Assembly (NCBI GenBank): GCA_040752815.1
Contig: JBFMGC010000019.1
Location: 1 to 46,923 of the forward strand
Reading direction: 5' to 3'
Source: Candidatus Zixiibacteriota bacterium
GTDB taxonomy: Bacteria; Zixibacteria; MSB-5A5; GN15; FEB-12
Length of the DNA: 46,923 nucleotides
Below the pieces are notes generated by a model that was not told where the DNA came from, searched no databases, and worked only from the letters and a program-made list of their open reading frames with translations. Below are positions 16,745-40,007 of this stretch, piece by piece. How positions within the stretch are numbered: position 1 is the first letter of the stretch; every line of letters starts with the position of its first letter. The translations under genes were made by a program, and so were the position numbers.

Positions 16745-18022
16745 CTAATAGTTATAGGTAAGTTTCAAATACACGTTGTCGTTTTTTTGGAACTGGCCGA
16801 AATCGGTGTTCTCGTGTCGGCCGGCAAAGAGGTTCCCTCCAGCTGCGATCGTAATCTCGTCCGTGTATTTATAGGCGGCGGACAGGCGGACATAAATATC
16901 TTCGTCGGTGGGCGAATAGAAACCGAATGCGGACAGGGTCAGATTCTCGCTCATGGCCAGCTTGGTGATTCTGCTCGTCAACAGGTGGCGGACCTCGTCG
17001 CGTACGAACACTCCCTGGGGCTGCTGCGCGGAGAATTTGTCATAGTCGGTCATATAGTCGAGCTGCCACTGGATATTAGCGGTAAGGTTGGTGGCCACCT
17101 GGCGTTCGAATCCGAGCAGGCCGGTCACCGACGAGTTGGGCACGAGCGGACTTTTGCCATCGCGGTCATCGCGTGAGTCGAGATACCCACCCTCGGTCCA
17201 GAGCACGCCTCCAGCGAGAGTTCCGCGCGCCGACGCGCCGAACACGTTGAGTCTCGGATAGTATGGGACGAATTGCGGCGCGTTGTCGACCATGACGACA
17301 TAAGCGCCCATCGGGTTTTTGTAGAAGCCATGGTAAGCGTACAGCGACACGTTGAATCCGCCGATATCGCGGCTTAGCCGGGCTGCGATTTCAGCATTCT
17401 TGAATTCCGGCTCCGGCTGGGGCGGATCGAAGTAATACAGGGGCGACAGCCCGGTGCCTACTATCCCTGGCACAAACGGGTTATAGTAGCTCAGGCGATC
17501 ACCGGTGGGCAGGCGGTTCGGCTCGAAACGGGGCGACCAGACCAGCGTTAGTTCGCCCAGCGGACTGTAGTATTCCGATCGAAGGGCGTTCTGCGGCTCT
17601 TTGAGATACTGGTCATCGCGACCGACAAAAAACGAGCGGTAGTCCTTGGCGAAGACATCGTTGATGAAGATCAGGTCGCCGGTCCCCCAGGTCAGCACCT
17701 GGCGGCCGACCTTGAAATCGAACCGGCTGCCGAGGCGGAATTTCAGATACCCCTCGCGAAGCTCCCAATCGTACGACGCGGTATCGGCGCCGTCGAAAAC
17801 AAAGTCAAGCCGCCCGAAAAACTCGCCGCTCGCGCCGGTGTGCTGCACGCGCAACTGAAGGCGGGTTTCCGACGCCGTCTGTTCGGTGGCAGTCGGGTTG
17901 TTCTTATCCAGACGGCCGCCATAGAGCCCCTGGAGGAAGCCGTCGAACGTGACTTGAGCGGGGGCCGGGGCTGCCGAGATCATCAGCAGCCCAGCAAGAA
18001 ATAAGGCGAGTTGTCGCATCAT
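16745..18022 (-). CDS. Outer-membrane beta-barrel protein (DUF1302-like)
   Basis: A 425-residue protein with a cleavable signal peptide (MMRQLALFLAGLLMISAAPAPA-Q) and alternating beta strands throughout, ending in an aromatic residue (KLTYNY), as in outer-membrane barrels. GREVLTWG-like text (KVGRQVLTWGTGDLIFINDVF) and the order of strands match DUF1302-type porins. It is the last gene of a three-gene unit with the LolA-like protein and the MMPL transporter, 10 bp after the former. A role in moving or exposing a lipid substrate at the outer membrane is the likely context; the substrate is unknown. Confidence 0.8.
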   Translation of the reverse strand: MMRQLALFLAGLLMISAAPAPAQVTFDGFLQGLYGGRLDKNNPTATEQTASETRLQLRVQHTGASGEFFGRLDFVFDGADTASYDWELREGYLKFRLGSRFDFKVGRQVLTWGTGDLIFINDVFAKDYRSFFVGRDDQYLKEPQNALRSEYYSPLGELTLVWSPRFEPNRLPTGDRLSYYNPFVPGIVGTGLSPLYYFDPPQPEPEFKNAEIAARLSRDIGGFNVSLYAYHGFYKNPMGAYVVMVDNAPQFVPYYPRLNVFGASARGTLAGGVLWTEGGYLDSRDDRDGKSPLVPNSSVTGLLGFERQVATNLTANIQWQLDYMTDYDKFSAQQPQGVFVRDEVRHLLTSRITKLAMSENLTLSAFGFYSPTDEDIYVRLSAAYKYTDEITIAAGGNLFAGRHENTDFGQFQKNDNVYLKLTYNY

Positions 18023-18032
18023 CAGCCCCGCT

Positions 18033-18830
18033 TTACTTTACAAACTGGCGCGGCGGGTTTTTCAGATAACGCTCGGTGAAGATGTCGTCGGTCAGGCCCA
18101 GGTTGTAATCGATACTGGCGAACTCGACTGTCGTTTTGCTTCCCTTCTTGACATCCTCCATGGTGCGAAGCGTGACCGTGAGAATCCCCTCGATCGTATC
18201 AACCCGGTCGGCATGGAACAGCCGTACCAGCGTTCCCTTCTTGTCGAAGTATTCCTCTTTGAGCGGGAGCAGGCCGGCCTTGTCGATATATGACACCTTG
18301 CGGGCAAACCCCTTGTACTCCTGCTTTGGTACGGATTCGATCACATACACCGGCTTGCCGTCGAGCTCCTGCTCGCCGATCAGCTTGTGCTCGTCCTCGG
18401 TCCAGTGACGGCCGGAGACGTCCTCGTAGGTGAAATCGGAGCCGACAAAGCTCGAGTTCTTGTCATCGGCTGAGATCGGCTTGATGAGATCGACCGCGGG
18501 TACGTAGATCCACCGCTTGTCGTTGCCGTCGGCGGACTTGTGCACCATGAAGCTGAGACGGGAGACATCAGACGGTTTCCGAAAATAAGTATAGTACTTC
18601 TGATTGCCGCCTTCTTCAATGTCGAGCCGCAACATGCTGAATTCGCGATCGCGCACTTTGCCGTTTTTGTCGATCAACTTCATGTTGACCTCGGCCAGAC
18701 CGTCATCGCCGGCATAGTAGTAGGCCAGATGCGAATTCTTCATGATCTCGGTGGCGTCTTGCGCCTGGGTGGTTGCGCCGGTTAACACGCTGATCAGGGC
18801 GATTACAAGGGCCTGTCGTAGTCCTTTCAT
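18033..18830 (-). CDS. Outer membrane lipoprotein-sorting (LolA-like) protein
   Basis: A 265-residue periplasmic protein: signal peptide MKGLRQALVIALISVLTGATTQA, then a LolA/LolB-like fold (NQKYYTYFRKPSDVSRLSFMV, WIYVPAVDLIKPISADDKNSSFVGSDFTYEDVSGR). This branch nearly always sits beside an MMPL transporter, as here: the two open frames touch. GGAG 8 bp before the ATG at 18830 decides the start; upstream in-frame ATGs at 18836 and 18854 are badly spaced. It probably carries a lipid or lipoprotein between the transporter and the outer-membrane barrel. Confidence 0.86.
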   Translation of the reverse strand: MKGLRQALVIALISVLTGATTQAQDATEIMKNSHLAYYYAGDDGLAEVNMKLIDKNGKVRDREFSMLRLDIEEGGNQKYYTYFRKPSDVSRLSFMVHKSADGNDKRWIYVPAVDLIKPISADDKNSSFVGSDFTYEDVSGRHWTEDEHKLIGEQELDGKPVYVIESVPKQEYKGFARKVSYIDKAGLLPLKEEYFDKKGTLVRLFHADRVDTIEGILTVTLRTMEDVKKGSKTTVEFASIDYNLGLTDDIFTERYLKNPPRQFVK

Positions 18831-18922
18831 TACCATTACTCCTTGTGTTCTCATATCATCAATATTAGCCACTCCGTGTCCGGCAGATGTCCACAACAGC
18901 CGACCTGCAAGGTGTGTTGCAT

Positions 18923-21268
18923 TCAATTCCCACTCGGCTGCGGTTCGGCGACAGCAGCAGATTTCGACCTGGCCTGTAGCCGCAGCAGCGCACCGTGAAA
19001 TTGCCGTGTTATAGCCGGCAAGAGCAGCATCGTAACCAGTCCGGAAACGATCATTATGGCCAGGAAGAACGACCCAACCGTGATGTACGGCACCAGCGAT
19101 GAGAACAGCATCGGCACAAAGCCGATCGCTATCACCAGCACGTTGCGGCCGATCGCCCGGCCGGTACCCTCAAAAATCTCATGAAATGACTGTTGAAAGT
19201 CGTGCGTCCGGCGATGGATCATACGCAACCGTTCGATATAATGAATCGCGAAGTCAATCGAAAGGCCGAGCGTGAGCGACGAAAGCACCGCCACCGGCAT
19301 GTCGTACGGCTTGCCCACGTAGCCGAGAAAAGCATAGATGGCCATTATCGTCAAGGTCAGCGGTAACATCGAAATCAATCCCCAACGCAGTGACCGGAAG
19401 AGGAAAACCATCATGATCAAAACGGTCACATAGGAACCCAGCAGTGACGAGCGCATGCCGGTAACCATTTGGCGCTGCCATTCGATATTTATGTACGGCA
19501 GGCCGGCCCATTCGGCCTCCACCCCGCTCGGAAGCTGGTGATTCGCCATGTACTGCTCGGCGCGCTCCACCACTCGGCTGACCGACATGTTGTCGCCGTT
19601 TTTCATCACTACCCAGAGATTCGCTTTGTTGTAGCTCGAGGTTACGAACTTGAACAGGTCATCGGGGTCGCCACCCGACATCTCGAACAGAAACAGCATC
19701 TGGGCGATTTCGTCCTGCGATTCCGGCAGACTGGCTTTGGTCGAATCCCCGCCATAAAGCTCGTAGCGCACTTTCTTCACTATGTCCGGCAGGCCGGTTG
19801 TCGAGCCTACATTCTCGTCGACGGCCAGTTCCCGCTGCATTGATTCGATATAACGCACCATCGCGGGGTTCTTCATGGCGTCATCATCAGGGCTTTCGAA
19901 TACCAGATAGTTCAAGTATGTCCCGGCCAGGTGCCTGTTCATGGCGGCATCGGCAATACGGATCGGATGCGATTGCTTGAACCACTTGACCGGGTTGTCG
20001 TTCACCACGATCAGCGACAAACCCACCGCCGCCACCACCGCCAGCGCCGCGGAACCATAGATAATCGTCTTGCTCCAATTGAATGAAAAGCTCCGGAAAC
20101 CGTGCATGATCCTGGCCAGCAAACCGTGCTCGTCATCCGACGCGCCAAAGTCTCTGAGAGTCTTGTCCGGAATCAGCATCCCGATCGCCGGGTTGAGTGT
20201 CAGCGACAAAAACCACGCCACCAGCACGCCGAACGCCACGAATATGCCGAATACCTGTACCGGTGGAATGGGGGTCAGCGCGAGCGAGAGAAAGCCGGCG
20301 ATTGTAGTCAACGACGTGAACAGCATCGGCATGAACAGCTCGCCGATAGAGTGACGGATGGTCGCGTCCTTGTGCTTGTAACGTTTGTAATGATCGTGGA
20401 ACTCCGATATGATGTGGATCGAATTCAATACCGCGATGGGGATGAGGAAGATCGGAATCATCGACGACATGATATGCACCGTGTTGCCGGTGAGGATCAG
20501 AAGCCCCATCGCCCAGATCGTTGACATCATCGCCACCACCATCGGCGCGAGGACAATCCGCAGGTTGCGGAAGAACATAAGCAGCAGCAGGAAGATGATC
20601 AGCATGGCGGCCGGCGCGCTGTAAGCCATCTGGACAAACATCTCTGCGCCGAACGAATCCTCGGCCAGCGGTAGTCCGGCGATATGATACTCCTCGTCGC
20701 CCTTGTATTTGTCGATGATTTGACGAATCTCCCCCGCTATCCGGTGCGACATGTCTTTGGATTCGATCGGCACCATGATCGCAACCGCTTTGCCGTCCTC
20801 ACCGGCCAACTTGCCGCGGAATATCGGGTTGGCGTTGATCCGGCTCCGGATATAGTCGGCCTCCTCCTGAGTTGTGATTTCACTTTCCATGAGCGGCGCC
20901 ACCACGAGCGTGCCACCCTCGCCCTGCTTGATATCGTCGACTGTCGACGGCGCCATGATGTCGTCAACCACTACCCCCTCGATATCCTGAATCTCAGCGG
21001 TGATATTATAGAGGCGATTGAGGGTCTCAGGAGTGAACGCCCCGGCCTCGTGCACGACCCCAACCGCAATAAAATCGGCCAGGCCGAACTCGTCCTTGGT
21101 CTGGTGCTCGAACAGACGCACCGGCTCGTCCTCGGCGAGCATGTTCTCGGGATCGGTGTCGATCTTCATGTTAAGGAACTGAACCGCGAAGAAGACGGTG
21201 ATTACCGACGCGATACCGATTACCCACCAGGGGTGCCGGATCGAAAAGTTAGTCAGAGCTTTTGCCAT
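18923..21268 (-). CDS. MMPL/HpnN-type RND transporter
   Basis: A 781-residue RND-superfamily protein with two repeats, each one transmembrane helix, a periplasmic loop and five helices. First half begins WWVIGIASVITVFFAVQFL and includes the 'sterol-sensing-like' stretch MSSMIPIFLIPIAVLNSIHII; the second repeat ends SLTLGLSIDFAIHYIERLR, with the Asp expected for proton relay. HpnN/MMPL relatives move hopanoids, lipids or lipoprotein-like cargo to the outer membrane. GAGGA precedes the ATG. It heads the operon with the LolA-like and barrel genes. Substrate unknown. Confidence 0.9.
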   Translation of the reverse strand: MAKALTNFSIRHPWWVIGIASVITVFFAVQFLNMKIDTDPENMLAEDEPVRLFEHQTKDEFGLADFIAVGVVHEAGAFTPETLNRLYNITAEIQDIEGVVVDDIMAPSTVDDIKQGEGGTLVVAPLMESEITTQEEADYIRSRINANPIFRGKLAGEDGKAVAIMVPIESKDMSHRIAGEIRQIIDKYKGDEEYHIAGLPLAEDSFGAEMFVQMAYSAPAAMLIIFLLLLMFFRNLRIVLAPMVVAMMSTIWAMGLLILTGNTVHIMSSMIPIFLIPIAVLNSIHIISEFHDHYKRYKHKDATIRHSIGELFMPMLFTSLTTIAGFLSLALTPIPPVQVFGIFVAFGVLVAWFLSLTLNPAIGMLIPDKTLRDFGASDDEHGLLARIMHGFRSFSFNWSKTIIYGSAALAVVAAVGLSLIVVNDNPVKWFKQSHPIRIADAAMNRHLAGTYLNYLVFESPDDDAMKNPAMVRYIESMQRELAVDENVGSTTGLPDIVKKVRYELYGGDSTKASLPESQDEIAQMLFLFEMSGGDPDDLFKFVTSSYNKANLWVVMKNGDNMSVSRVVERAEQYMANHQLPSGVEAEWAGLPYINIEWQRQMVTGMRSSLLGSYVTVLIMMVFLFRSLRWGLISMLPLTLTIMAIYAFLGYVGKPYDMPVAVLSSLTLGLSIDFAIHYIERLRMIHRRTHDFQQSFHEIFEGTGRAIGRNVLVIAIGFVPMLFSSLVPYITVGSFFLAIMIVSGLVTMLLLPAITRQFHGALLRLQARSKSAAVAEPQPSGN

Positions 21269-21499
21269 GTACTATCCTCGTGCCGTTTAGCCACGTTTGC
21301 CAGATTAGATGACAATGTGCTTCGAATGATTCAAAAATTATGTCGTGATTGCAGTCAATCTAGCTAAGTCTTTGTCGAATAACAAACAAGAGGCCATCGC
21401 GTTCCCCTGCACCTTCCGGGTAAACGAAACTCACTTGGTAGAACCCGACGTTATTTCCCAAGGCGAATACGTCGCTCCGCAATCGCACGCTCGGGCCTG
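21269..21499. other. Intergenic, nothing recognised
   Basis: The 231 bp between the MMPL gene start and the oxidoreductase stop are moderately AT-rich. I see no gene, no convincing terminator and no clear promoter, though the minus strand must carry the promoter of the MMPL operon. Confidence 0.5.
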
Positions 21500-22744
21500 T
21501 CAGATCATCGATCGGGCGCCCATGATCTTTCCACCCAGAAGAAGGCCATACCTGTACGCTGTTCTACGAATCCCATGCGGGGCCAGCCACCATTTCTCAA
21601 ACAGTATTTTGCCGACGTGCCAGGCCTTTCCAATTTTCTTTAGTTTTACTTCCGGAGAAGGTTCTGCAAAAAAGTTGCCATATGCGAACCCGGCAAGGTC
21701 TGCACCGGCTTCAAGCATGCAGTAACCGTCACCACAGAAACTCACATTCGACTCACGTCCTGTGATGCTTCCCGCGACTCGACGTGCGACTACTAACGCC
21801 TGGGCATGTGCGAATACTCCTGCCTTGGGAAGCATAAGAGGAACCTCCGGTTTCCATCGGCCCGGTATCGGAATCGACGTCACGTCGCCAATAGTGTAGA
21901 CGTTGTCTACCTTGGTTACCATGGAAAACCTGTCGACCGGTATCCATCCAGTCTCATTAGCCAGCACAGATTTCCGAATAACGTCCGGGCTTCGATGCGG
22001 CGGGATCGCCACAAGAAGATCATAGGGAATGGCGCCCTTGTCTGCGAACAGCATCTGCTTATTTACGCCGTCTACGGATTGAAGCTGATGAAGTGAGTGA
22101 TACCTGATCTTTCTCGCAGCGAGCATTGCGGACGCCGCATTGGCCAGGAGCGGCCCGGCTACCGGCATCGGCTGAGACTCCGGAGTAAACAGATCGATTT
22201 CCACGGCAGCCCGGCGCCCGCATCGACTGAAAAAATCGGCTATCAGCATAGCTCCTTCAAGGGGCGCGCCGGGGCACTTGTATGGCAACGCAGCGACTAC
22301 AACCGCAATTCTGCCCGAGCAAAATTCTCTGAGTGCGTTGTGCAGCCTGCCGGCGCCGTCCAGTGTATAAAACGTGTGTGCCACCCCAGCTAATCCCGGG
22401 ACTTCACCCGGGGCCAGCTCGGCGCCAAGCGCGACAATCAGGTAGTCATAGGCCAGCACGCCTTGGTCGGTTTCGACCTGCGCCCGCGTGCTGTCGATGG
22501 CGAGAACATTGGCCCGGAGAAAGTCGACACCAGATCGAAGCAGAACTTTCACGGGTTGAGTAATCCTACCGGGGCGACGGTGGCCTGTCATCACCCACAG
22601 GAATGAGGGGGCAAAGGCATGATTCTCGTTGCGCTCCACGAGAATGATTCGGTGATGCCAAGGGAGTAGTTGCCTCAGTTCATTGGCGGCCACAAGTCCA
22701 CCGACACCGCCGCCCAATATCAATACTGTCTTGGAGTGAGTCAT
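21500..22744 (-). CDS. sqr: Sulfide:quinone oxidoreductase-like flavoprotein
   Basis: A 414-residue FAD-dependent oxidoreductase of the SQR/flavocytochrome-c sulfide dehydrogenase group: VLILGGGVGGLVAANELR (FAD site), YDYLIVALGAEL and NVYTIGDVTSIPIPG. Redox-type cysteines occur in LPYKCPGAPLE and GDGYCMLEAGA, the positions of the second and third SQR cysteines; the first of the usual three is not apparent. It should oxidise sulfide to sulfane sulfur and pass electrons to the quinone pool. Third gene of the ArsR-rhodanese/DsrE/SQR operon. Type II NADH dehydrogenase is less likely given the Cys motifs. Confidence 0.86.
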   Translation of the reverse strand: MTHSKTVLILGGGVGGLVAANELRQLLPWHHRIILVERNENHAFAPSFLWVMTGHRRPGRITQPVKVLLRSGVDFLRANVLAIDSTRAQVETDQGVLAYDYLIVALGAELAPGEVPGLAGVAHTFYTLDGAGRLHNALREFCSGRIAVVVAALPYKCPGAPLEGAMLIADFFSRCGRRAAVEIDLFTPESQPMPVAGPLLANAASAMLAARKIRYHSLHQLQSVDGVNKQMLFADKGAIPYDLLVAIPPHRSPDVIRKSVLANETGWIPVDRFSMVTKVDNVYTIGDVTSIPIPGRWKPEVPLMLPKAGVFAHAQALVVARRVAGSITGRESNVSFCGDGYCMLEAGADLAGFAYGNFFAEPSPEVKLKKIGKAWHVGKILFEKWWLAPHGIRRTAYRYGLLLGGKIMGARSMI

Positions 22745-22781
22745 CTTATTCTATCCGGCAGCCGGTATTTTCTGAACGAGT

Positions 22782-23132
22782 TCAGAATACAATGGTCTTG
22801 TCCGCCCAGATCGTCCAGTCGGTGAGTTCTTCCATGGAACTACGATGAACTCCGTCGAGCAAGTCCCTTTCCGCAATGCCCCGGGCATCTGCGCACGATC
22901 CACATACGCCGACCGGTATCTCGGTCGACACCAGGCTCCTGATCATCCGCTCAAGATTGTAGTAGCCTGACGGTGTCTTCTGGCCCTTCATAGCGCAGCC
23001 GATTGCATCCGCCATGAGGAATACATGCAACTCGATACCCTCCCTTTTGCTAAGCGAGACAGCCAGCCGCAACGCATTATACGAGCGCTCTGTGCCGTAG
23101 GGCGGGTCATTCAGCAGCAAGAGTATTTTCAT
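22782..23132 (-). CDS. DsrE/TusD-like sulfur-relay protein
   Basis: A 116-residue DsrE-fold protein: MKILLLLNDPPYGTERSYNALRLA at the start and VFLMADAIGCAMKGQKTP in the middle. Cysteines in AIGCAM and GVCGSCADARG are candidates for carrying persulfide; the latter is the position used by DsrE/TusD proteins. AGGAG precedes the ATG. It lies between the ArsR-rhodanese regulator (45 bp) and the SQR-like gene (37 bp), which fits transfer of sulfane sulfur produced by SQR. Confidence 0.88.
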   Translation of the reverse strand: MKILLLLNDPPYGTERSYNALRLAVSLSKREGIELHVFLMADAIGCAMKGQKTPSGYYNLERMIRSLVSTEIPVGVCGSCADARGIAERDLLDGVHRSSMEELTDWTIWADKTIVF

Positions 23133-23177
23133 GTTTCTCCTATCTCGGGTCTACAACTTCCTTTCTTGCCGAGTGAA

Positions 23178-23843
23178 CTACCCTGTTTCGACCGGCATGC
23201 CGGCCTCTTCCCATTCAGCGACTCCATCCTTCAGTCGGGTGGCTTCCAGTCCTTTTGACCGAAGATACGAAACGGCCTCTTGAGCAAGTACGCAGTACGG
23301 CCCACGGCAGTACGCGACAAACTTTTTGTCGGGAGGGAACTCTTTCAGACGCTTTTTAAGCGCTGACAGGGGCACCGATACCGCGTGCGGCAAGTGACCG
23401 GCCGCAAATTCATCGACAGGCCGAACGTCAAGAATGACAACCTCACCGGCTTTCGCCTGCTTCAGCAGCCTCCTGCGCTCAACCGGCAGAAGGGTCGGCG
23501 AGTCGTCAAAGTAATCAGCTATGATGCGATCGATTTCGGCGAGCCGCCTCTGGGCGATCTCGCGCAGGGTGCGAAAGAATCGGCACACTTCGCGATCAGC
23601 CAGACGGTAGTAGACAAATACGCCATCTTTTCGGCCGTCGACCAATCGAGCCACTCGAAGGACATGCAGGTGCCGCGAGGTATTTGCTATTGACATCGAT
23701 GATTGCTGGGCCAGTACCTCGACGGTCTTTTCGGACTGACACAACAGGTCCAGAAGCTCAAGGCGCTTGGGGCTGGATAGGGCGCGGCCCAGGAGGGCGA
23801 ACTGGGCGTAAAGTCTGTCCTTAGTCTCTCGTGCAACGGACAC
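23178..23843 (-). CDS. ArsR-family regulator fused to a rhodanese domain
   Basis: A 221-residue two-domain protein. Residues ~10-85 are an ArsR winged helix (SSPKRLELLDLL, MSIANTSRHLHVLRVARLVDGRKDG). Residues ~130-221 are a rhodanese domain with the complete active loop CRGPYC (C179, C184). C35 and C87 in the DNA-binding part could form a persulfide sensor like that of SqrR/BigR, though their spacing differs. Likely job: repress the operon and respond to sulfide-derived sulfane sulfur. Start is GTG 23843 with GAGG 8 bp upstream. An operator palindrome lies 16-37 bp upstream, over the -10. Confidence 0.9.
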   Translation of the reverse strand: MSVARETKDRLYAQFALLGRALSSPKRLELLDLLCQSEKTVEVLAQQSSMSIANTSRHLHVLRVARLVDGRKDGVFVYYRLADREVCRFFRTLREIAQRRLAEIDRIIADYFDDSPTLLPVERRRLLKQAKAGEVVILDVRPVDEFAAGHLPHAVSVPLSALKKRLKEFPPDKKFVAYCRGPYCVLAQEAVSYLRSKGLEATRLKDGVAEWEEAGMPVETG

Positions 23844-23858
23844 CGTATTATCCTCAAC

Positions 23859-23880
23859 TATTCAATCAATTAATTGAATA
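23859..23880. promoter_or_regulatory. Palindromic operator of the sulfide operon
   Basis: Perfect inverted repeat TATTCAAT-N6-ATTGAATA (23859-23866/23873-23880) with a nested perfect 12-bp palindrome TCAATTAATTGA at 23866-23877. Its size and AT-rich TTGAAT half-sites fit an ArsR-family binding site. It overlaps the -10 element of the promoter reading into the ArsR-rhodanese gene. Confidence 0.78.
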
Positions 23881-23905
23881 TATTACGTTTCTCCCCCTGC
23901 CGCAA
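23877..23905 (-). promoter_or_regulatory. Promoter of the sulfide operon
   Basis: On the minus strand: TTGCGG (23905-23900), a 17-bp spacer, and TATATT (23882-23877; 5/6). The -35 is weak (3/6). Binding to the adjoining palindrome would block RNA polymerase. Confidence 0.6.
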
Positions 23906-24173: not shown

Positions 24174-24372
24174 CCCACCCGCTTGCGCGTGGGATCGAGA
24201 TGCCACTTGCGTGAGGTCCTGCCCTCCGCCGGCAGATGAGGACATCTGCCGGGCCCTGTTATAAAGCCGCCGGCAGATGAGGACCCCGCGCTCCTGCGCG
24301 GGGCCGGGCACGATGTTGACAGAAGTCTCGCGTAACAGCCCGACCTCGGTGGCCCACCCGCTTGCGGGTGGG
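24174..24372. repeat. Array of intergenic hairpin repeats
   Basis: The 607 bp between the sulfide operon and the dockerin gene carry no gene I can support. They hold: CCCACCCGCTTGCGCGTGGG at 24175-24194, an imperfect copy of the perfect hairpin CCCACCCGC-TT-GCGGGTGGG at 24353-24372; CCGGCAGATG-AGGA-CATCTGCCGG at 24229-24252; and a half copy of that (24270-24283) running directly into CCCCGCGC-TCCT-GCGCGGGG at 24284-24303. Confidence 0.75.
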
Positions 24373-24967: not shown

Positions 24968-27223
24968 TTACTTCTTGGACGCGATTTCTTCGATTAGCTT
25001 CTTCAATTCGGCCACCTGGGCCTTGAGTTCCTGGTTTTCTTTCCGCAGTTCCTTGACCGCGGCCAGCGCGATACCGGACGGATCAATAGTCGAAATCGTC
25101 TTGTCATTGGCGCCTACGCCAAACACTTCCTTGAAATCCTGGGCGGTCGGGCCGATATGCGTGACCTCGTCCGACTCGTTCTTATAGTTCCACTGTGTGA
25201 TACGGAGCTGCTCGATCTTTTCGAGAATCTTTTCCCCGTCCACCGGCTGGAAGTTCTCTTTTATGTCAGCGTCCGAGACATTGACCCAATTCGTACCGTT
25301 GCAATAGGCCCCTCCGGCTACCTCAATGGCTGCCGATGGCGCGGCCACACCGATACCGACTTTTGATTGGAAATACGCCTCTCCGTTTGTGCCAATCTGT
25401 GCTGCTACCGTACCGACGCTGTTGCGAAGGATACTACCATCGCCATTCATAACATGGATCACTGTCCCATTCTGTTCGAGAGAGATGCTGGGCCCGGCCG
25501 CGCTATCCACTACGATTCGGGCTGATGACGGCTGGGTGGCGTAGATAAAGCCGGATTGAAGCTTGTACTCTGTTGAAGTGCTGCTGCTAGTGGTGGTCGC
25601 ACTGTAATCATCGGTGCCGTCATTATTGAGATCAACAGCACATACCGTGCTGGCCGTCGACGCATCCGTCGCGCTCGCAACCATCCTTTGGGCGCCGGTA
25701 CCCTTGGTCTTGATGGCCATGCGAGCACCAGCTTCATCGGCGGAATCGACAATTTGACTCTGCGTTGGCCTGTCGCCCCGCTCGAAGAACGTCTTCAGGA
25801 TTGACCTGGACTGTGTCGCATTTGACGATGATCCGACATCCGGCGTGCCGTCATCGTCGACATCGACCACCATCGCCATGGCAGTTTCTGAACTGTCGAC
25901 TTTTTGCCAAACGGTACCATTGAAAATGCCGTCCCCATCCAAATCAGCACCAACGACCTGCACTGCCGAATCCTGATATGTGGTGCTGCTGATCCGGTTC
26001 TTGTCGGCTCCGGTCCCTTTGGTGTTGATGGCCACATTCGAGGTCGTCGGAGTGATCACGACCGACGCGGACCCTTCAGGATCACCGTCATCATCAGTGT
26101 CGTGGGTACAGGCGATGGCTGCAGAATCCAGAGTTGTGGTGCCGGTAACTGCCACGCGGTTCTTGTCGGCGCCGGTCCCCTTGGTGTTGATCGCGACACT
26201 GGACGTGGTCGGCACGACGGCAGATGCAACTTCCTGGTCGGGTAAGCCGTCGCCGTCATCGTCTATCGCGCATGTGTGCACGGCGCTTCCTTCGCCGGTG
26301 GAGCCGGAAACGAACACCAGTCGTCCGCTCTGAGCGCCGGTGCCTTTGGTGTTGACCGCGTGTTTGGCGCTGGTAGCATCACACGATGAAGAGACAATGC
26401 GATCAGGTGACCCGTCGCGGTCCACGTCGGCCACTACTACCTTGCGCGCGCCAAGATCATCACATGTGGTAGTCACCGATGAGTTTTGCATCAAACCCAG
26501 GTGCAGGAGCTTGGATTCTAGTTCGTTAATCCTCGTCCGCATATTGATGCTTGAGCTGGAACTGCCATCGCCCACGTCGCAGGCCTGCACGACCGAATCC
26601 GGCGTGGCCGCCATTCTTATTGTACCGGTGGTGCTGCCGCTCATGCCGCCTTTCCATCTGGAAGTCGCACCGTTCTCAGTTACCGCATCCTCGATTTCTA
26701 CCTCGGGCGTACCATCGGCGTCGCTATCGACATCCAGCAATACGAAGGAATGTGGTGTAACCGAACCGGGCTTCGCTACAACCATGCCACGCCACCGAGC
26801 CAGCCCATTGGTGGCCTGGCCATTGACGCTGCTTGCGCTGAAGGCACTCGGGACGGCTCCAAGCCGCAGCCGGGGACGAAGAGTCTCCGGGCTTCCGCTC
26901 ACCAGTACTTGAACTTCCAGGTACAGGTCCTGTTGGGCGAAATCTGTGAACACATCAAAGAAGCCGTTCGTGAGACCCAGTTCTGCGGAAAAGAGTCCGT
27001 CTTTGGTCTCGATGTCCTGCGGCTCGCTCCAAAGCTGAGCCCCACCCACTGAGTCGGTCCACAGGCTGAAAGTAGCAGCGTATGCACCGTCGGCTAACGG
27101 CGTGTCGTCAGAATTCAGAAGGCGACCGTGATGGGAGATGACTGGCGTGGCGGCATGCGATGGCATCCACACGGCCATCACCACCAGCACGACTACCAGA
27201 CGAAGCAGCGATCTTGGAATCAT
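24968..27223 (-). CDS. Large secreted protein with calcium-loop repeats and a C-terminal S74 intramolecular chaperone domain
   Basis: A 751-residue protein with signal peptide MIPRSLLRLVVVLVVMAVWMPSHA. Residues ~30-135 match the N-terminal domain common in such surface proteins (HGRLLNSDDTPLADGAYAATFSLW). Between ~165 and ~560 there are about eight repeats pairing a D-x-D-x-DG calcium loop (DVDRDGSPD, DDDGDGLPD, DTDDDGDPE, DLDGDGIFN) with INTKGTGADKNR-type strands. From ~655 the S74 chaperone-of-endosialidase domain appears (SDADIKENFQPVDG, QDFKEVFGVG), with a terminal coiled coil. By family precedent the S74 part trimerises the fibre and may self-cleave. Probably a surface adhesin; phage tail-fibre ancestry is possible. 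Confidence 0.85.
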   Translation of the reverse strand: MIPRSLLRLVVVLVVMAVWMPSHAATPVISHHGRLLNSDDTPLADGAYAATFSLWTDSVGGAQLWSEPQDIETKDGLFSAELGLTNGFFDVFTDFAQQDLYLEVQVLVSGSPETLRPRLRLGAVPSAFSASSVNGQATNGLARWRGMVVAKPGSVTPHSFVLLDVDSDADGTPEVEIEDAVTENGATSRWKGGMSGSTTGTIRMAATPDSVVQACDVGDGSSSSSINMRTRINELESKLLHLGLMQNSSVTTTCDDLGARKVVVADVDRDGSPDRIVSSSCDATSAKHAVNTKGTGAQSGRLVFVSGSTGEGSAVHTCAIDDDGDGLPDQEVASAVVPTTSSVAINTKGTGADKNRVAVTGTTTLDSAAIACTHDTDDDGDPEGSASVVITPTTSNVAINTKGTGADKNRISSTTYQDSAVQVVGADLDGDGIFNGTVWQKVDSSETAMAMVVDVDDDGTPDVGSSSNATQSRSILKTFFERGDRPTQSQIVDSADEAGARMAIKTKGTGAQRMVASATDASTASTVCAVDLNNDGTDDYSATTTSSSTSTEYKLQSGFIYATQPSSARIVVDSAAGPSISLEQNGTVIHVMNGDGSILRNSVGTVAAQIGTNGEAYFQSKVGIGVAAPSAAIEVAGGAYCNGTNWVNVSDADIKENFQPVDGEKILEKIEQLRITQWNYKNESDEVTHIGPTAQDFKEVFGVGANDKTISTIDPSGIALAAVKELRKENQELKAQVAELKKLIEEIASKK

Positions 27224-31783: not shown

Positions 31784-34700
31784 TCACGCTATGTGACCCG
31801 TTTTCTTCTTCTCCTGCTTGATCTGCCAGAGGCGCCAGTAAGTATAAACAACCGGAATGATTTCGAGTGTCAGGAAGGTCGAGCTGATCAGTCCGCCGAC
31901 CATCGGTGCGGCGATTCGCTTCATGACATCGGCGCCCGTGCCGGTGGCCCAGAGCAGCGGTACCAGGCCGATCATGGTCGTGCTGACCGTCATCAGTTTG
32001 GGCCTCACCCGCATAACAGTCCCCTCCATGTGAGCCCAAATGATATCGTTGACGTCCCGAATTCTGCCGGCCTTTTTTCGTCGCTCGTATGCGTGGTCGA
32101 GATACAAGATCATTACGATACCCGTCTCCGTGGCCAAGCCCGCCAGCGCGATGATCCCGACCAGCGTCGCCGTCGAGTAGTTGTAGCCGAGGAAATACAT
32201 CAGCCAGATGCTCCCCACCAGCGCGAACGGCACCGAAGCCAGCACAATGAGAGTCTCGGTGAAGTTGCGGAAATTCAGATACAACATGATGATAATCAGA
32301 ATGAACGTGATCGGGATGACCACTTTCATCCGCTTGGCCATCAGTTCCAGTAGCTCGTACTGGCCGGTCCATTTCAGATAGTACCCGGGCGGAATCGGCA
32401 CCTGCTCGGCAACGACCTGCTTGGCTTCGTTAACGTAGCCGCCGATATCCCGTTTGTTTTGGTCCATGTCGACGTAGACATATCCGACGAGCATGCCGTC
32501 TTCGTCCCGAATCATCGGCGGGCCGGTGGCTATTCGAATGTCAGCGACCTCACCCAGTGGTATGCTGGCGCGCCCCTCCGGCAGGCGCGTGGGCTTTCTG
32601 GCTGCCGATCTGTTCATGCCGCTCGCTGCCGGCATGCTCTGCACATTCATGCCGCCGGCGCCCCCCGGGAAAGACGTGCCGGAAGAGCCGCCGCCCATCT
32701 TTTCGTTTTCCATCTGAGCTACAGTCATCACACTTCGCAGCGCCTGATAGTCCACCCAGGGGTCGGCACCGGCGAGCAGCGGCGATGCCACACTTTGGGC
32801 AGGACGGTACCAACCCATGGTCATGCCATCAGATTGAGAGTCGGATCCTCCGGACGGCAACGGCACCAGCACTTCCTTCAGGCGGTCCACGTTCTGACGG
32901 AGATCGCGGGGATAGCGCACGTTGATCGAAAAGCGGTTGCGTCCCTCGATGGTCACCTCAACCGGCAATCCACCGATGGCGGCCTCGATCACATCCTGAA
33001 CATCGCGCATGGTCAGCCCGTAACGAGCTATCTTGCCACGATCGGGGATTATGTCGATGAAGAACCCGCCGGTGTTACGATCTGAGTACACGGAGCGGGT
33101 GCCGGAAATCGATGATAGCGATTGCTCCAGTTCCATGCCGATGCGCTCGATTTCGGCCAAATCGTTCCCGAAAATCTTCACACCGATAGGCGTGCGAATG
33201 CCGGTGGAGAGCATGTCAATTCGGGTCTTGATCGGCATGGTCCAGGCGTTGGTCCAGCCGGGCATCTGCATCGCCTTGTCAAACTCGGCGATAAGTTCTT
33301 TCCAGGTGATAGTCCGCTCCTCCGGCCAGACGGGGCGAAGGACCTTCTTGAGAAAGTCCGGCGCCCAGCCCGAATACCAGCGCTTCTCGGGCACCTTGCG
33401 CCACTCGTCTGTCGGTCTCAACTGGACTGTCGTCTCGAGCATACTCAACGGGGCAGGATCAGTCGGGGTTTCCGCCCGACCAGCCTTCCCGTACACGGAA
33501 ATCACTTCGGGGAACGACCGTATGACTCGGTCCTGAAATTGCATGTACTGCTTGGCCGCCTCGACGGAGATGTTCGGCAAAGTAGTAGGCATGTAGAGAA
33601 TGTCACCCTCGTTCAGGGGCGGCATGAACTCCGAGCCGATTTTCGGGATCATCGGGATCGCCGAAACGATAGCCATGAGACCTATGAGAACGGTCGTCCT
33701 CGGATTGCGCAGAGCCACGAACACAAACGGCTTGTAAACTGAGATCAGGACGCGGGATACGGGATGCTTCGATTCTGGATGAATTTTCCCCCTTAGAAAA
33801 GTAACCATGAGCGCCGGCGCGAGTGTAACAGCGACAATCGCCGCGAAAAACATGGCGAAAGTCTTCGTATACGCCAATGGCGTAAACAGTCTTCCGCCCT
33901 GGCCGGTGAGGGCAAAAATCGGAAGGAAGCCGATCGTGATGATCAAAAGAGCATAGAAGATCGACGGGCCGACCTCCTTGGCCGCCGCGATAATGACCTC
34001 TATCCGCGGCACCGTGGCCGGGGCGTTCTCCATGCGCTTGTGGGCGTTCTCGACCAGCACGATACTGGCGTCAACCATCGCACCGATGGCGATGGCTATC
34101 CCACCGAGACTCATTATGTTCGAGTTGATCCCAAGAAAGTACATTGGAATAAACGCCAGTCCGACCGCGATCGGCAGCGCGATGATCGGCACGAGGGAAC
34201 TGCCAAAATGCAGCAGAAAGATGATGATGATGGCGGCGACGACGACGCCTTCTTCTATCAAAGTGTCCTTCAGCGTGTCGATGGCCCTCGTGATCAGGTT
34301 GCTTCTATCGTAGACCGTTCTGACCTCGATACCTTCCGGGAACGATGGTTCCAGTTCTTCAAGCTTAGCCTTGACCCGCTCGATAACCGCCAGCGCGTTC
34401 TCGCCGTAGCGCATCACGACAATACCGCCCACCGCTTCACCCTCGCCGTCGAGCTCGCCGACACCGCGACGGATATCGGGGCCCAGGCTTACCCGAGCGA
34501 CATTGCCGAGCAGAATCGGCGTACCGGTAGCGCTCTTACCCAGGCCGATCTGGCGTATCGCATCGAGACTCTGAATGTACCCTTTGCCACGAATGAAGTA
34601 CTCCCGCTCGGTAAGCTCGAGCACCCGGCCGCCGACATCATTGTTGCTTGCGCGAATCGCCCGGCTGACATCGCCGATACTGAGACCATAGGCACGGAGT

Positions 34701-35284
34701 TTCTCCGGATCGACTTCCACCTGGTACTGCTTTTGGTAACCGCCGATACTGGCGACCTCGGCCACTCCGGGCAGCGATGCCAGTGCGTATCTCAGGTTGA
34801 AGTCCTGAAATGTGCGCATCTCTGAGAGGTCATGTCTGCCGGTGGTGTCAACGAGTGCATACTGGAAGACCCAGCCTACCGACGAGGCATCGGGGCCTAT
34901 GATTGGCGTGACACCTTTAGGCAGTTTCCCTTCGAACTGCTTCATGTATTCGAGCACCCGGCTTCGCGCCCAGTAGATGTCAGTTCCCTCATCGAAAATC
35001 ACATAGACAAACGACATCCCGAACATCGAATACCCCCGCACTGCCGTCACATGTGGGGCCGACAAGAGAGCTGTGACTATCGGGTAGGTGACCTGGTCCT
35101 CGACAAGGTCAGGGCTGCGTCCCATCCATTCGGTCCACAGGATCACCTGAACGTCGGACAGGTCCGGGATGGCATCGAGCGGGATATTCTCAATCGAATA
35201 CCAGGCGCCGAGACAGGCGAAAAGCGTCCCGATGATCACAACCGACCGGTTGCGAGCGCAGAAATCTATGATGGCCTTTATCAT
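31784..35284 (-). CDS. cusA: Heavy-metal efflux RND transporter, CusA/CzcA type, with inserted Met-rich loop
   Basis: A 1166-residue inner-membrane HME-RND pump, about 120 residues longer than E. coli CusA. Visible: the N-terminal helix and NIPLDAIPDLSDVQVI, proton-relay AMVDASIVLVENAHKRME, and NAWTMPIKTRIDMLSTGIRTPIGVK with the Met of the CusA metal site. An insertion at about residues 810-898, rich in Gly, Ser and Met (MGGGSSG, MNVQSMPAASGMN), interrupts the periplasmic region just before PLGEVADIRIATGPPM. It exports a soft metal (Cu/Ag most likely by motif) with the CusB- and TolC-type partners. Last gene of the operon; 21 bp after the adaptor gene. Confidence 0.95.
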   Translation of the reverse strand: MIKAIIDFCARNRSVVIIGTLFACLGAWYSIENIPLDAIPDLSDVQVILWTEWMGRSPDLVEDQVTYPIVTALLSAPHVTAVRGYSMFGMSFVYVIFDEGTDIYWARSRVLEYMKQFEGKLPKGVTPIIGPDASSVGWVFQYALVDTTGRHDLSEMRTFQDFNLRYALASLPGVAEVASIGGYQKQYQVEVDPEKLRAYGLSIGDVSRAIRASNNDVGGRVLELTEREYFIRGKGYIQSLDAIRQIGLGKSATGTPILLGNVARVSLGPDIRRGVGELDGEGEAVGGIVVMRYGENALAVIERVKAKLEELEPSFPEGIEVRTVYDRSNLITRAIDTLKDTLIEEGVVVAAIIIIFLLHFGSSLVPIIALPIAVGLAFIPMYFLGINSNIMSLGGIAIAIGAMVDASIVLVENAHKRMENAPATVPRIEVIIAAAKEVGPSIFYALLIITIGFLPIFALTGQGGRLFTPLAYTKTFAMFFAAIVAVTLAPALMVTFLRGKIHPESKHPVSRVLISVYKPFVFVALRNPRTTVLIGLMAIVSAIPMIPKIGSEFMPPLNEGDILYMPTTLPNISVEAAKQYMQFQDRVIRSFPEVISVYGKAGRAETPTDPAPLSMLETTVQLRPTDEWRKVPEKRWYSGWAPDFLKKVLRPVWPEERTITWKELIAEFDKAMQMPGWTNAWTMPIKTRIDMLSTGIRTPIGVKIFGNDLAEIERIGMELEQSLSSISGTRSVYSDRNTGGFFIDIIPDRGKIARYGLTMRDVQDVIEAAIGGLPVEVTIEGRNRFSINVRYPRDLRQNVDRLKEVLVPLPSGGSDSQSDGMTMGWYRPAQSVASPLLAGADPWVDYQALRSVMTVAQMENEKMGGGSSGTSFPGGAGGMNVQSMPAASGMNRSAARKPTRLPEGRASIPLGEVADIRIATGPPMIRDEDGMLVGYVYVDMDQNKRDIGGYVNEAKQVVAEQVPIPPGYYLKWTGQYELLELMAKRMKVVIPITFILIIIMLYLNFRNFTETLIVLASVPFALVGSIWLMYFLGYNYSTATLVGIIALAGLATETGIVMILYLDHAYERRKKAGRIRDVNDIIWAHMEGTVMRVRPKLMTVSTTMIGLVPLLWATGTGADVMKRIAAPMVGGLISSTFLTLEIIPVVYTYWRLWQIKQEKKKTGHIA

Positions 35285-35305
35285 TGGTGTCGCCTTTCCT
35301 CGCGG

Positions 35306-37075
35306 CTACTTGCCGTGTCCGGCGTGGGCATCGGTCTGCGTGGCGCCCATGCCGGCAATGGCCGCTTTGAGACGGCTTTCGGAGTCGATCAGGAAGTTGG
35401 CGCTGGTCACCACTTGTTCACCCTCAGACAGTCCCGCCAGCACTTCCATATAGTCATCCGACCTGCGGCCGGACTGGATCAGCCGGGGTTCGAAATGAGT
35501 GCCATTGTGAACGACGAAGGCGTACGTCTGGTCGCCGCCATCCATGACTGCGTCCGACGGCACCGCGAGAACGCGGTCACCCTTGCCTTCGAGCGCCACC
35601 TCGGCGTACATACCCGGCTTCAAGCGGAACGACTGATTAGAAAACTCCATTCGTATCTTGAGCGTTCTGGTTTCCTCCGAAACTGCCGGGTAGATGAAGC
35701 TGACAAGGCCCTCAAATTCCTCACCGGGATAGGCCGACGTGGTCATGCGAGCCTTTTGTCCGACTCTGATACTGGCCAGGTCGCGCTCGTATACGTCCAC
35801 AAGGACCCACACGCGGCTAAGGTCGGCCACCGCAAAGAGCTTTTGATCGGGGCCGATGAATTGTCCGGCGACTACGTTTTTCTCCAGCACGTATCCGGAA
35901 AACGGGCTTTTGACCCACAATTCCGCGCTGGGTGAGTTGGCCGTCTCAAGGCGCGCAAATTCCTCTGCGGGTATACCCAGCAATTGCAGACGCTGCCGCG
36001 CGACATCGAGCAGTTGTTTTCGCGTCTCTTTCAGCATTGGGTCTGCAACACGCGCCATCGCCTCGCGTGCGACGATATAATCTTGCTCGGCCTGATACAG
36101 ATCCTGGCTGTAAACCGACAGGAGCTTTTGATTCGCCGTCACCGGCTGGCCGGTCTGAGCCACCTCCAGCTCCTTTACCCAGCCGCTGAATCTGACATGA
36201 ATATCCGACAGGCGGGTTTCATCGGGTGTAACGAATCCGACGAGCCGAAGACTCCCATTCAGCGGACGACGCTCTACTCTGCCGGTACGAACGCCTATGA
36301 GCTGGAGCCGTTGCGGCTCGATTGTTACCGGCACAAGACCGGGGACAGGCGCCGAGCCGAGATTATCCGCCCCGCCCACTCCGTGGGCCGAGTGGTCCAC
36401 ACCCGTCTCCGCCTTAACCGACTCGAGCGGCATACCACACTTGGGGCAATCACCCGGCCTATCGGAGGTCACTTCGGGGTGCATGGGGCAGGCATACGTT
36501 GCTTTCGCCTCGGGCACCTGCTCCAGAAACATCCCACACTTGGGGCACCTGCCTAGCGTGTCTGAGATTACCTCGGGGTCCATAGGGCACGTGTACTGGC
36601 CGGGCTGGGCGGCCATAGGAACCTGTTCGAGAAACATCCCGCACTTGGGGCATCTGCCCGCGGTGTCGGAGACTACCTCCGGATCCATCGGGCAAGTGTA
36701 CTGGCCCGGCTTGGCCATGGAGGCTGATTGGGCTTCATGCCCGGACTCGCCCATGGTGTCACCTGATGCCGCAACCTCGTGTCCCTCACTATCTATAGCC
36801 ACCAGGCTCATACCGCAGATCGGGCAGTCGCCCGGCTGATTGCTGATATACGTGGGATGCATGGGGCAGTGGAACTGCTGCGCCCCTGCGGCATCGCCAC
36901 TCCAGGGGGTCAAACCGAAATAGCCGAGCACCATGATCAGCGCAAACAAGGTCATGGCTCCCAAGATAACCCACCGCACTATCGCCATCGTGTGCGTCAG
37001 CGGCGGCGCCGCCTCTTCTCCTTCGGGCAACGGCTCGTGTTCATGCGGATCGTATTTGCGAATGTCTTCAGCCAT
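35306..37075 (-). CDS. cusB: CusB-type efflux adaptor with four tandem heavy-metal-binding domains
   Basis: A 589-residue membrane-fusion protein. One helix at residues ~31-54 is followed by four HMBD zinc-ribbon-like units: 67-95 (CPMHPTYIS...CPICGM), 126-152 and 161-187 (CPMDPEV...CPKCGMFLE), and 193-220 (CPMHPEV...CPKCGM). From ~245 the CusB adaptor core begins, with LRLVGFVTPDETRLSDIHVRF and SPFSGYVLEKNVVAGQFI, ending in the His-rich AHAGHGK. It bridges the pump and the TolC-like channel and may hand metal over. Usual family members carry none or one HMBD. The two middle units contain Asp where His is normal. Confidence 0.94.
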   Translation of the reverse strand: MAEDIRKYDPHEHEPLPEGEEAAPPLTHTMAIVRWVILGAMTLFALIMVLGYFGLTPWSGDAAGAQQFHCPMHPTYISNQPGDCPICGMSLVAIDSEGHEVAASGDTMGESGHEAQSASMAKPGQYTCPMDPEVVSDTAGRCPKCGMFLEQVPMAAQPGQYTCPMDPEVISDTLGRCPKCGMFLEQVPEAKATYACPMHPEVTSDRPGDCPKCGMPLESVKAETGVDHSAHGVGGADNLGSAPVPGLVPVTIEPQRLQLIGVRTGRVERRPLNGSLRLVGFVTPDETRLSDIHVRFSGWVKELEVAQTGQPVTANQKLLSVYSQDLYQAEQDYIVAREAMARVADPMLKETRKQLLDVARQRLQLLGIPAEEFARLETANSPSAELWVKSPFSGYVLEKNVVAGQFIGPDQKLFAVADLSRVWVLVDVYERDLASIRVGQKARMTTSAYPGEEFEGLVSFIYPAVSEETRTLKIRMEFSNQSFRLKPGMYAEVALEGKGDRVLAVPSDAVMDGGDQTYAFVVHNGTHFEPRLIQSGRRSDDYMEVLAGLSEGEQVVTSANFLIDSESRLKAAIAGMGATQTDAHAGHGK

Positions 37076-38645: not shown

Positions 38646-40007
38646 TCAGGCTTGCCTGTCAGGACGGATCTCGAATTTCTTCATGCGGTAGATAAGAATG
38701 TGCCGCGGGATCTTCAGATACGCCGCCGCCTTGGTCCGATTCCACCCGAACCTGTTGAGGGCATCGACAATCAGCCGCTTTTCGGCCTCGTAGAAAGTCA
38801 GGTGCGAACCAATGTCGGCACTAACAACCGATGCCTGCGCCGGCGAGCTCGCGGTCGCAAAGTCAGGCGGCAGGTCGTCGTGTGTCAGAATATCCGATGT
38901 CCGCAGTATGGCCATCCGCTCCATCAGGTTTTCGAGCTCCCGGATGTTTCCCGGCCAGGGGTGCTGACGAAGCTCGTTCATAAGATCTTCTGCGATGCTG
39001 ATCTTCTCTCCGGGGGCGAATTTGTCGAGAAAGGTTTTGGCCAATAGGGCGATGTCTTCGCGGCGCTCCCTCAAGGGCGGCACATGGACCGGGATGACAT
39101 TCAGCCGATAAAACAAATCCTCGCGGAAGCGGTTGTCGGCCACTCGTTCGCGCAGGTTGACATTGGTAGCGGCCAGCAGGCGCACGTCGATCTCCACCCG
39201 TTTCTCCGAACCGACCGGCTCGATTACCCGTTCCTGTATCGCCCGAAGCAACTTCGCCTGCAGCTCCATGCTGAGCTCGCTGATCTCGTCGAGTAGGAGC
39301 GTGCCACCATCGGCTTGTTCGAATTTCCCGACCTTATCTTTGACCGCACCGGTAAAAGCGCCCCGCACGTGGCCAAATAACTCGGACTCCAGCAACTCCC
39401 TGGGGATGGCCGCGCAGTTGACCGCCACAAACTCATTGCCGGCACGGTTGCTCTGGCGATGGATGTTCCGTGCGACCAGCTCCTTCCCGGTGCCGGACTC
39501 GCCGGTGATCAAAATTGTCGCGTCTGTCGGCGCTACCTTGTTGATCATCTCTACAAGGCGCTTGAAAGCCAGCGAAACTCCCACCATCGGACGCGGTCTA
39601 CCCGCGCCGGTCAACTGCTCTTTGAGCAGTTTGTTCTCCGCCTCCAGCTGGCGGTATTTGACCGCTTTTTCGATAGCCATGAAAAGCTGGTCATCATCGA
39701 ACGGCTTGGTCAGGTAATCGAATGCGCCCAGCTTTACCGCTTCCACCGCCTGAGAAACTGCTGCATAAGCAGTCATGAAGATGATTTCGAGATCGGGTTG
39801 GATCTTTCGGGCCTGCTTGAGCAGGTCCAGCCCGGTCAGCCGCGGCATTTTCATGTCGGAAAGCAGCAGATCGTAGCTGCTCTCTCTCAAAGCAATCAGC
39901 GCCTCTTCGCCGTCGGCGGCCGCCGTCACCTGGTACCCGCGCTGCTTGAGTTTGAACTGGATGACCTTCCGCAAGGCAGCGTCATCGTCGGCCAATAAAA
40001 CCTTCAC
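38646..40007 (-). CDS. NtrC-type sigma54-dependent response regulator
   Basis: A 453-residue three-domain regulator. Receiver domain residues 1-120 with the phospho-acceptor D51 (LLLSDMKMP). AAA+ domain about 145-375 with Walker A GESGTGKE, the sigma54-contacting GAFTGA, Walker B GGTLLLDEIS and the arginine finger region NRFREDLFYRLNV. Fis-type HTH at the C-terminus (WNRTKAAAYLKIPRHILIYRM). It is expected to activate the sigma54 promoters found here. Its start overlaps the sensor stop (ATGA). The nearest analogues by design are ZraR-like regulators of metal-stress genes. Confidence 0.95.
   Translation of the reverse strand: MKVLLADDDAALRKVIQFKLKQRGYQVTAAADGEEALIALRESSYDLLLSDMKMPRLTGLDLLKQARKIQPDLEIIFMTAYAAVSQAVEAVKLGAFDYLTKPFDDDQLFMAIEKAVKYRQLEAENKLLKEQLTGAGRPRPMVGVSLAFKRLVEMINKVAPTDATILITGESGTGKELVARNIHRQSNRAGNEFVAVNCAAIPRELLESELFGHVRGAFTGAVKDKVGKFEQADGGTLLLDEISELSMELQAKLLRAIQERVIEPVGSEKRVEIDVRLLAATNVNLRERVADNRFREDLFYRLNVIPVHVPPLRERREDIALLAKTFLDKFAPGEKISIAEDLMNELRQHPWPGNIRELENLMERMAILRTSDILTHDDLPPDFATASSPAQASVVSADIGSHLTFYEAEKRLIVDALNRFGWNRTKAAAYLKIPRHILIYRMKKFEIRPDRQA

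Follow-up and report, generated by a model that had tools for sequence, protein, structure and literature searches.

Comparison with known ArsR-type sulfur sensors

The ArsR-type regulators SqrR, BigR and YgaV possess two conserved cysteines, one in alpha-2 and one in alpha-5 (PMC12423496 and PMC10509353). The ArsR sulfur sensors constitute SSN cluster 4 and use two cysteines of the DNA-binding domain (PMC10509353), and the site of SqrR is ATTC-N8-GAAT (PMC9774250). The DNA examined here, referred to as the window, is a stretch of 46,923 nucleotides from a Candidatus Zixiibacteriota bacterium, and it carries an operon headed by an ArsR-rhodanese regulator. As with SqrR, BigR and YgaV, an ArsR winged helix heads sulfur genes, and ATTC/GAAT half-sites lie over the promoter. 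In contrast to these three regulators, the alpha-2 sensor cysteine is replaced by Asp or Glu in all 93 ArsR-rhodanese regulators compared, the half-sites of the window's family are separated by N12 instead of N8, and a rhodanese domain with an invariant C-x4-C is fused to the DNA-binding part. The partner cysteine that SqrR and BigR carry near the end of alpha-5 is also missing, the window protein having only C87 at the start of this helix. The BigR equivalog NF040642 (38.1 bits, cut-off 155) and the TsoR equivalog NF045707 (48.4 bits, cut-off 115) were both rejected as identities for the regulator.

Both the top fold match and the best sequence match to the ArsR part are M. bovis Mb0332 (PDB 2kko, 3gw2), whose structures comprise the DNA-binding fragment 1–100 only. 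Mb0332 is presumably the counterpart of Rv0324, which we take to carry a rhodanese domain, and Rv0324 is a possible mycobacterial member of the ArsR-rhodanese family. In EMSA, the promoter of Rv0324 was shifted by the protein itself (PMC9953421), and deletion of Rv0324 is linked to bedaquiline hypersensitivity in a review (PMC9480834); the accessible parts of the Rv0324 literature deal with binding to the own promoter, hypoxia modules and tolerance of bedaquiline, and sulfur is not their subject. In the literature search, which mostly lay outside the subscription journals, the term "ArsR-rhodanese" was absent and no study was recognised as treating such a fusion, and the same accessible texts yielded no binding, transcription or chemistry data for the members with a rhodanese domain presented here.

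Gene content and order

The regulator gene (23178–23843, minus strand) starts with GTG and encodes 221 aa, in which an ArsR winged helix-turn-helix (HTH_5 PF01022, 33.1 bits, cut-off 22; NF033788, 70.2 bits, cut-off 55) is joined to a complete rhodanese domain (PF00581, 54.6 bits, cut-off 22.2). A gap of 45 bp separates it from the DsrE-family gene (22782–23132, minus strand, 116 aa), and a further 37 bp separates the latter from the SQR-like flavoprotein gene (21500–22744, minus strand, 414 aa). The proposal of the earlier note, that these three ORFs form one minus-strand operon whose regulator unites DNA-binding and rhodanese domains, agrees with both the positions of the ORFs and the domain scores.

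The same note had called the module self-contained, which does not fit the wider gene order. In the window, as in the related locus L025, the genes run on through an MMPL/RND-type exporter gene (18923–21268, 781 aa), a LolA-like outer-membrane lipoprotein-sorting protein gene (18033–18926) and a DUF1302 protein gene (16745–18022), all on the minus strand; furthermore, relatives pair the regulator with this cassette or with other genes, lacking SQR. Because L025 repeats the order and relatives join the regulator to the MMPL cassette, the regulated unit of the window probably extends past 21500–23905 into MMPL-LolA-DUF1302, the exporter gene forming its probable distal part, and the cassette is probably co-transcribed with the regulator operon. 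Simultaneously, the 232-bp gap 5' of the MMPL gene carries a conserved element of its own, so the distal genes may use a separate promoter. This 35-bp element (21298–21332, minus strand) is common to the window and L025 (genome G019), and a pattern matching L025 perfectly has one mismatch in the window; the element occurs once in each of the two genomes, is absent from G083, and might be a second promoter or a regulator site. A search for an operator copy 5' of the MMPL gene gave best matches with five mismatches in the window and three in L025, and none was accepted.

Putative promoter and operator of the window

By eye, the promoter of the regulator consists of the -35 hexamer TTGCGG (23900–23905, minus strand) and, 17 bp away, the -10 hexamer TATATT (23877–23882, minus strand). 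In the seven close relatives, likewise by eye, TTGCG or TTGAC/TTGCC stands at a comparable -35 place and the -10 is TATATT or TATAAT in all seven. With 8 of 12 matches where 9 are required, the promoter is missing from the output of the consensus promoter scan. The putative operator TATTCAAT-N6-ATTGAATA, with the core ATTC-N12-GAAT, occupies 23859–23880. It had been noted from the letters alone as a palindrome covering the -10; the palindrome is exact, real and situated at the regulator's promoter, and "covers" is slightly strong since it overlaps four of the six bases of TATATT.

The exact palindrome exists as a single copy in the 3.19-Mb genome, the remaining matches having three mismatches and the reversed-pattern control giving 1, and in the shuffled window matches with at most three mismatches are rare (mean 0.10). 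A palindrome of equal quality within 90 AT-rich bases is marginally unusual alone (p = 0.049 against 60 shuffles); hence, it is the conservation among relatives, and not the single-sequence palindrome score, that places the site beyond chance. A regulon beyond the operon was considered and rejected: with up to two mismatches, the own genome contains 26 sites, the reversed pattern gives 23, and the sole one-mismatch site falls within an ORF, so no wider regulon is claimed. As a separate observation by eye, two copies of TCCTCATCTGCCGGCGG are located upstream of the operon, at about 24227–24283 on the minus strand.

Operator conservation and spacing in relatives

Within the window's phylum, a full-length relative exists in 12 of 132 genomes at E 1e-30 (14 proteins); these and 79 of 80 named loci compose the set of 93 regulators. 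The named loci are the best 80 of 563 relatives and hence a biased sample, and one search pattern used for them contained L[CS]Q, which favours C35. To offset both biases, an independent draw was made from 299 Pseudomonadota genomes, of which 43 had a match, and all 45 regulators were fetched. Loci L037 and L026 are one and the same record; L037 was dropped from the cysteine, operator, neighbour and covariation counts of the 93-regulator set and kept in the early neighbour listings and in the generic palindrome-score test. L115 and L195 gave no regulator ORF when neighbours were listed. Direct computation covered which genes are present and in what order, how far the operator and its spacing are conserved, operator–regulator covariation and the invariance of the rhodanese cysteines.

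The operator lies just 5' of the start codon in all seven closest regulators, the window included, and in one of these (locus L024) both arms are altered symmetrically. Upstream of 33 of the 93 regulators, a set drawn largely from the best 80 of 563, ATTC-N12-GAAT is present, compared with 0.22 in shuffles and 0 in the in-gene control. The spacing is distinctive: in ATTC-Nk-GAAT, k = 12 occurs in 33 regulators and k = 4 in 10, while any other k from 0 to 20 occurs in at most 4. The Pseudomonadota sample repeats the preference, with k = 12 in 19 of 45, k = 17 in 5 and k = 4 in 3, and the SqrR spacing ATTC-N8-GAAT was found in 0/93 and 0/45, respectively. The longer pattern ATTCWAW-N6-WTWGAAT, with at most one mismatch, precedes 40 of the 93 regulators (shuffles 0.1). 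Part of the family fits poorly, with four or more mismatches in 14 of the 93 and in 14 of the 45 Pseudomonadota regulators. A generic palindrome score against shuffles proved weak (p ≤ 0.05 at 34 of 94 loci), and the fixed-spacing test was used instead. A rhodanese-carrying regulator heading a putative sulfide-oxidation operon and a site shared by distant bacteria point to a widespread, little-studied type of putative sulfur sensor.

Covariation between regulator and operator

The two arms of the operator vary together. At half-site position 5 they agree at 65 of 87 sites (37.6 expected), and at position 7 at 56 of 87 (25.8 expected). In mutual information with base 5, residue 53 ranks highest of the 210 residues tested, with residue 57 in second place and residue 60 in fourth. 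Residue 53, which is Ala in the window (codon 23685–23687, minus strand), is contained in the modelled recognition helix formed by residues 52–64. The correspondence is complete in the 64 sites whose arms agree: Ala53 accompanies A at base 5, and other residues accompany T. On a tree of 137 of the 138 rows, in which L153 and L154 apparently repeat L076 and L110 (zero distance), each trait changes four times and three supported independent pairs are all concordant (p = 0.25); three pairs are too few for significance, so the link between residue 53 and base 5 is suggestive, not proof. The covariation is thus suggestive of a regulator that may read the ATTC-N12-GAAT operator through residue 53.

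Cysteines of the regulator and the proposed site of sensing

The rhodanese loop CRGPYC, which had been read from the translation, is present at residues 179–184 (23292–23309, minus strand), and both of its cysteines, C179 and C184, are invariant as C-x4-C in 93 of 93 regulators and in 45 of 45 from Pseudomonadota. As a rule, classical rhodanese loops end in a residue other than a second cysteine; an invariant second loop cysteine at this place suits a dithiol switch.

By analogy with SqrR and BigR, the earlier note had proposed C35 and C87 as candidate sensor residues. In a rival reading built on these two, the ArsR part would sense and the rhodanese would only move sulfur. Both cysteines do occur together in the window protein and its six closest relatives, and in the model the end of alpha-2 holds C35 and the beginning of alpha-5 (residues 84–113) holds C87. 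The domain arrangement of this model is unsure (pTM 0.53), hence no distances between cysteines are given. Neither residue is conserved: C87 is cysteine in 32 of 93 regulators and in 0 of 45 from Pseudomonadota, and C35 in 69 of 93, a figure inflated by the L[CS]Q search pattern, and in 4 of 45 drawn without it. Furthermore, neither aligns with the alpha-2 cysteine of YgaV; the window residue at this place is D32, with C35 three residues further on. Sensing through C35 and C87 is therefore quite unlikely as the general mode, and could be a local addition in the window's clade.

In another reading, the rhodanese domain would only detoxify or relay sulfur, and DNA binding would be constitutive or metal-controlled. 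The completeness of the domain, at 54.6 bits, is compatible with an enzyme of this kind. Metal control finds little footing in the window regulator, for which no model specific to a single metal reached its cut-off, and in whose ArsR part C35 and C87 are the only cysteines and the alpha-5 stretch 84–113 lacks His; simultaneously, the invariant C184 suits a switch instead of a mere catalyst. This enzyme-only role is considered highly improbable.

A further pointer to the loop comes from neighbouring genes. In four related loci (L042, L044, L058 and L088), a TsoB-like rhodanese/DsbD gene downstream of the regulator contains two in-frame TGA codons, which would yield U-x4-U at the matching loop place; these genes are probable selenoproteins, and the coincidence suggests that the loop residue pair is redox active. 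The TsoB rhodanese/DsbD selenoprotein resembles the regulator in having two candidate reactive loop residues five positions apart, printed for TsoB as the motif UxxxxU, but as U-x4-U in a membrane enzyme and not as C-x4-C in a putative repressor. Since the ArsR cysteines are not conserved, C179 and C184 are invariant and the TsoB-like neighbours show U-x4-U, the best reading places the candidate sensor in the rhodanese dithiol C179/C184 and not in the ArsR domain.

DsrE and SQR-like proteins

The DsrE protein (PF02635, 87.1 bits, cut-off 22.7) has E. coli YchN (PDB 1jx7) as its closest solved relative, matching over the full length at E 1.4e-27. Both belong to the same family and have the CxxC in common, here C77-x2-C80, which is kept in 51 of 51 aligned relatives (3 of 54 DsrE loci were too short and left out). 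TusD was rejected as an identity, with 35.3 bits against a cut-off of 89.25.

The SQR-like flavoprotein scores above the cut-off for Pyr_redox_2 (91.3 bits), and its top sequence matches among solved chains are solved SQRs. Of its cysteines, C157 is conserved in all 23 aligned relatives and C342 in 22 of them (5 of 28 SQR loci were too short and left out). With the fold and two conserved redox cysteines, the protein qualifies by sequence as a putative SQR. The best NCBIfam model is NF049943, the type III selenoprotein subtype (E 1.3e-68); this subtype was rejected because the score of 231.7 bits falls short of the cut-off of 525, and the window protein has Cys and no Sec.

Gene neighbourhoods and the nature of the signal

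Neighbours were counted by hit position, which replaced a count by reading frame, and since the neighbour HMMs were built from the same loci that they score, the upstream and antisense counts serve as control. A DsrE gene lies in sense within 4 kb downstream of the regulator at 54 of 93 loci, with 0 in antisense and 1 upstream. SQR follows in sense at 28 of 93, and all 28 loci also have DsrE; in this set, whose named loci are the best 80 of 563, the SQR+DsrE form occurs in eight named phyla and in the window's own. Other in-sense downstream partners are an MFS transporter (28 of 93), a metallo-beta-lactamase (MBL) protein (21), MMPL (8) and NifS-like proteins (8), and more rarely SelD (4) and the TsoB-like pair (4). 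The upstream 4 kb, on either strand, contain DsrE 1, SQR 1, MFS 5, MBL 2, MMPL 0, NifS-like 2, SelD 1 and TsoB-like 1. Of the 38 Pseudomonadota loci with 1.5 kb downstream, 1 has DsrE in sense and 1 has SQR; as most of these regulators lack such partners, the SQR/DsrE context characterises one part of the family, and the inducer could differ between branches because the gene context is not constant. Many Pseudomonadota regulators (L155–L191) are divergent from two gene clusters, p1 and p2, that resemble membrane proteins.

The selenium-related neighbours raise the reading that the signal for the family is a selenium species, or thiol oxidation in general, sulfur genes being one output among several. 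Relatives adjoining SelD, NifS-like or TsoB-like selenoprotein genes (4, 8 and 4 of 93) speak in its favour, as does the selenoprotein subtype as best, below-cut-off model of the window SQR. Set against these, the commonest partners include DsrE (54), SQR (28) and MBL (21) in the 93 regulators, with their best-80-of-563 basis, and no SelD gene adjoins the window operon. This reading is judged unlikely.

The exporter genes suggest yet another signal, a substrate of the MMPL/RND pump, with SQR and DsrE as incidental neighbours. MMPL comes immediately after the regulator in L029, L030 and L032 (LolA was not detected in L032), and MFP and RND genes take its place in L031 and L033–L035, all these loci lacking DsrE and SQR; locus L070 has the order regulator, SelD, TauE, MMPL, LolA, DUF1302. 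The regulators of the exporter-only loci are more distant, at 47–51% identity, and both rhodanese cysteines are kept whatever the neighbouring genes, as would be expected for a signal of sulfur or redox nature. An exporter substrate as inducer is accordingly very unlikely.

Proposed mechanism

The reading preferred here, held with slightly better than even confidence, is that of an ArsR-rhodanese autorepressor whose rhodanese dithiol would sense sulfane sulfur made by SQR, with DsrE perhaps relaying it. A regulator dimer would bind ATTCAAT-N6-ATTGAAT over the -10 and the start region and silence the operon to which it belongs. At rising sulfide levels, basal SQR would produce sulfane sulfur, presumably the inducer, which the C-x2-C of DsrE may carry or buffer and hand to C179. 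The C179 persulfide would then react with C184 to form a disulfide or polysulfide bridge, shifting the domain arrangement so that the DNA is released; this would permit expression of SQR and DsrE, and probably of the export genes MMPL-LolA-DUF1302. Operator conservation, arm covariation, the invariance of C179 and C184, the DsrE/SQR linkage, U-x4-U in the TsoB-like neighbours and the Rv0324 EMSA count for the autorepressor; the inconstant gene context, the low number of changes on the tree (four), the poor operator fit in part of the family and the separate MMPL element count against it.

Judged from sequence, the window encodes a putative variant of sulfur sensing by ArsR-type regulators, and the predictions that follow from it are sharp: an exact DNA site, the cysteines and a base-contact residue. 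A broader and more doubtful proposal is that ArsR-rhodanese regulators might be a distinct class of sulfur sensor in at least 10 phyla, in which the C-x4-C sulfurtransferase site is the sensor and is loaded enzymatically via an SQR-to-DsrE relay, measures the flux of sulfide oxidation instead of free polysulfide, and reads ATTC-N12-GAAT with base 5 set by residue 53. If true, bacteria would have a second solution to sulfur sensing beside the two-cysteine ArsR sensors, in which a large adjacent group of regulators uses a fused enzyme domain, another dithiol and another spacing. Should Rv0324 belong here, the proposal would likewise suggest what kind of chemical signal acts on this mycobacterial regulator, which is associated with tolerance of bedaquiline.

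Other genes in the window

Elsewhere in the window, an RND pump of the AcrB/AcrD/AcrF family and a CusB/HlyD-type adaptor with heavy-metal-binding domains are encoded at 31784–37075 (minus strand), together with a sigma-54 response regulator at 38646–40007. At 24968–27223 (minus strand), a 751-aa protein contains repeated "INTKGTGA" stretches and FG-GAP-like repeats and, towards the C-terminus, a domain of the Peptidase_S74 (endosialidase chaperone) type.
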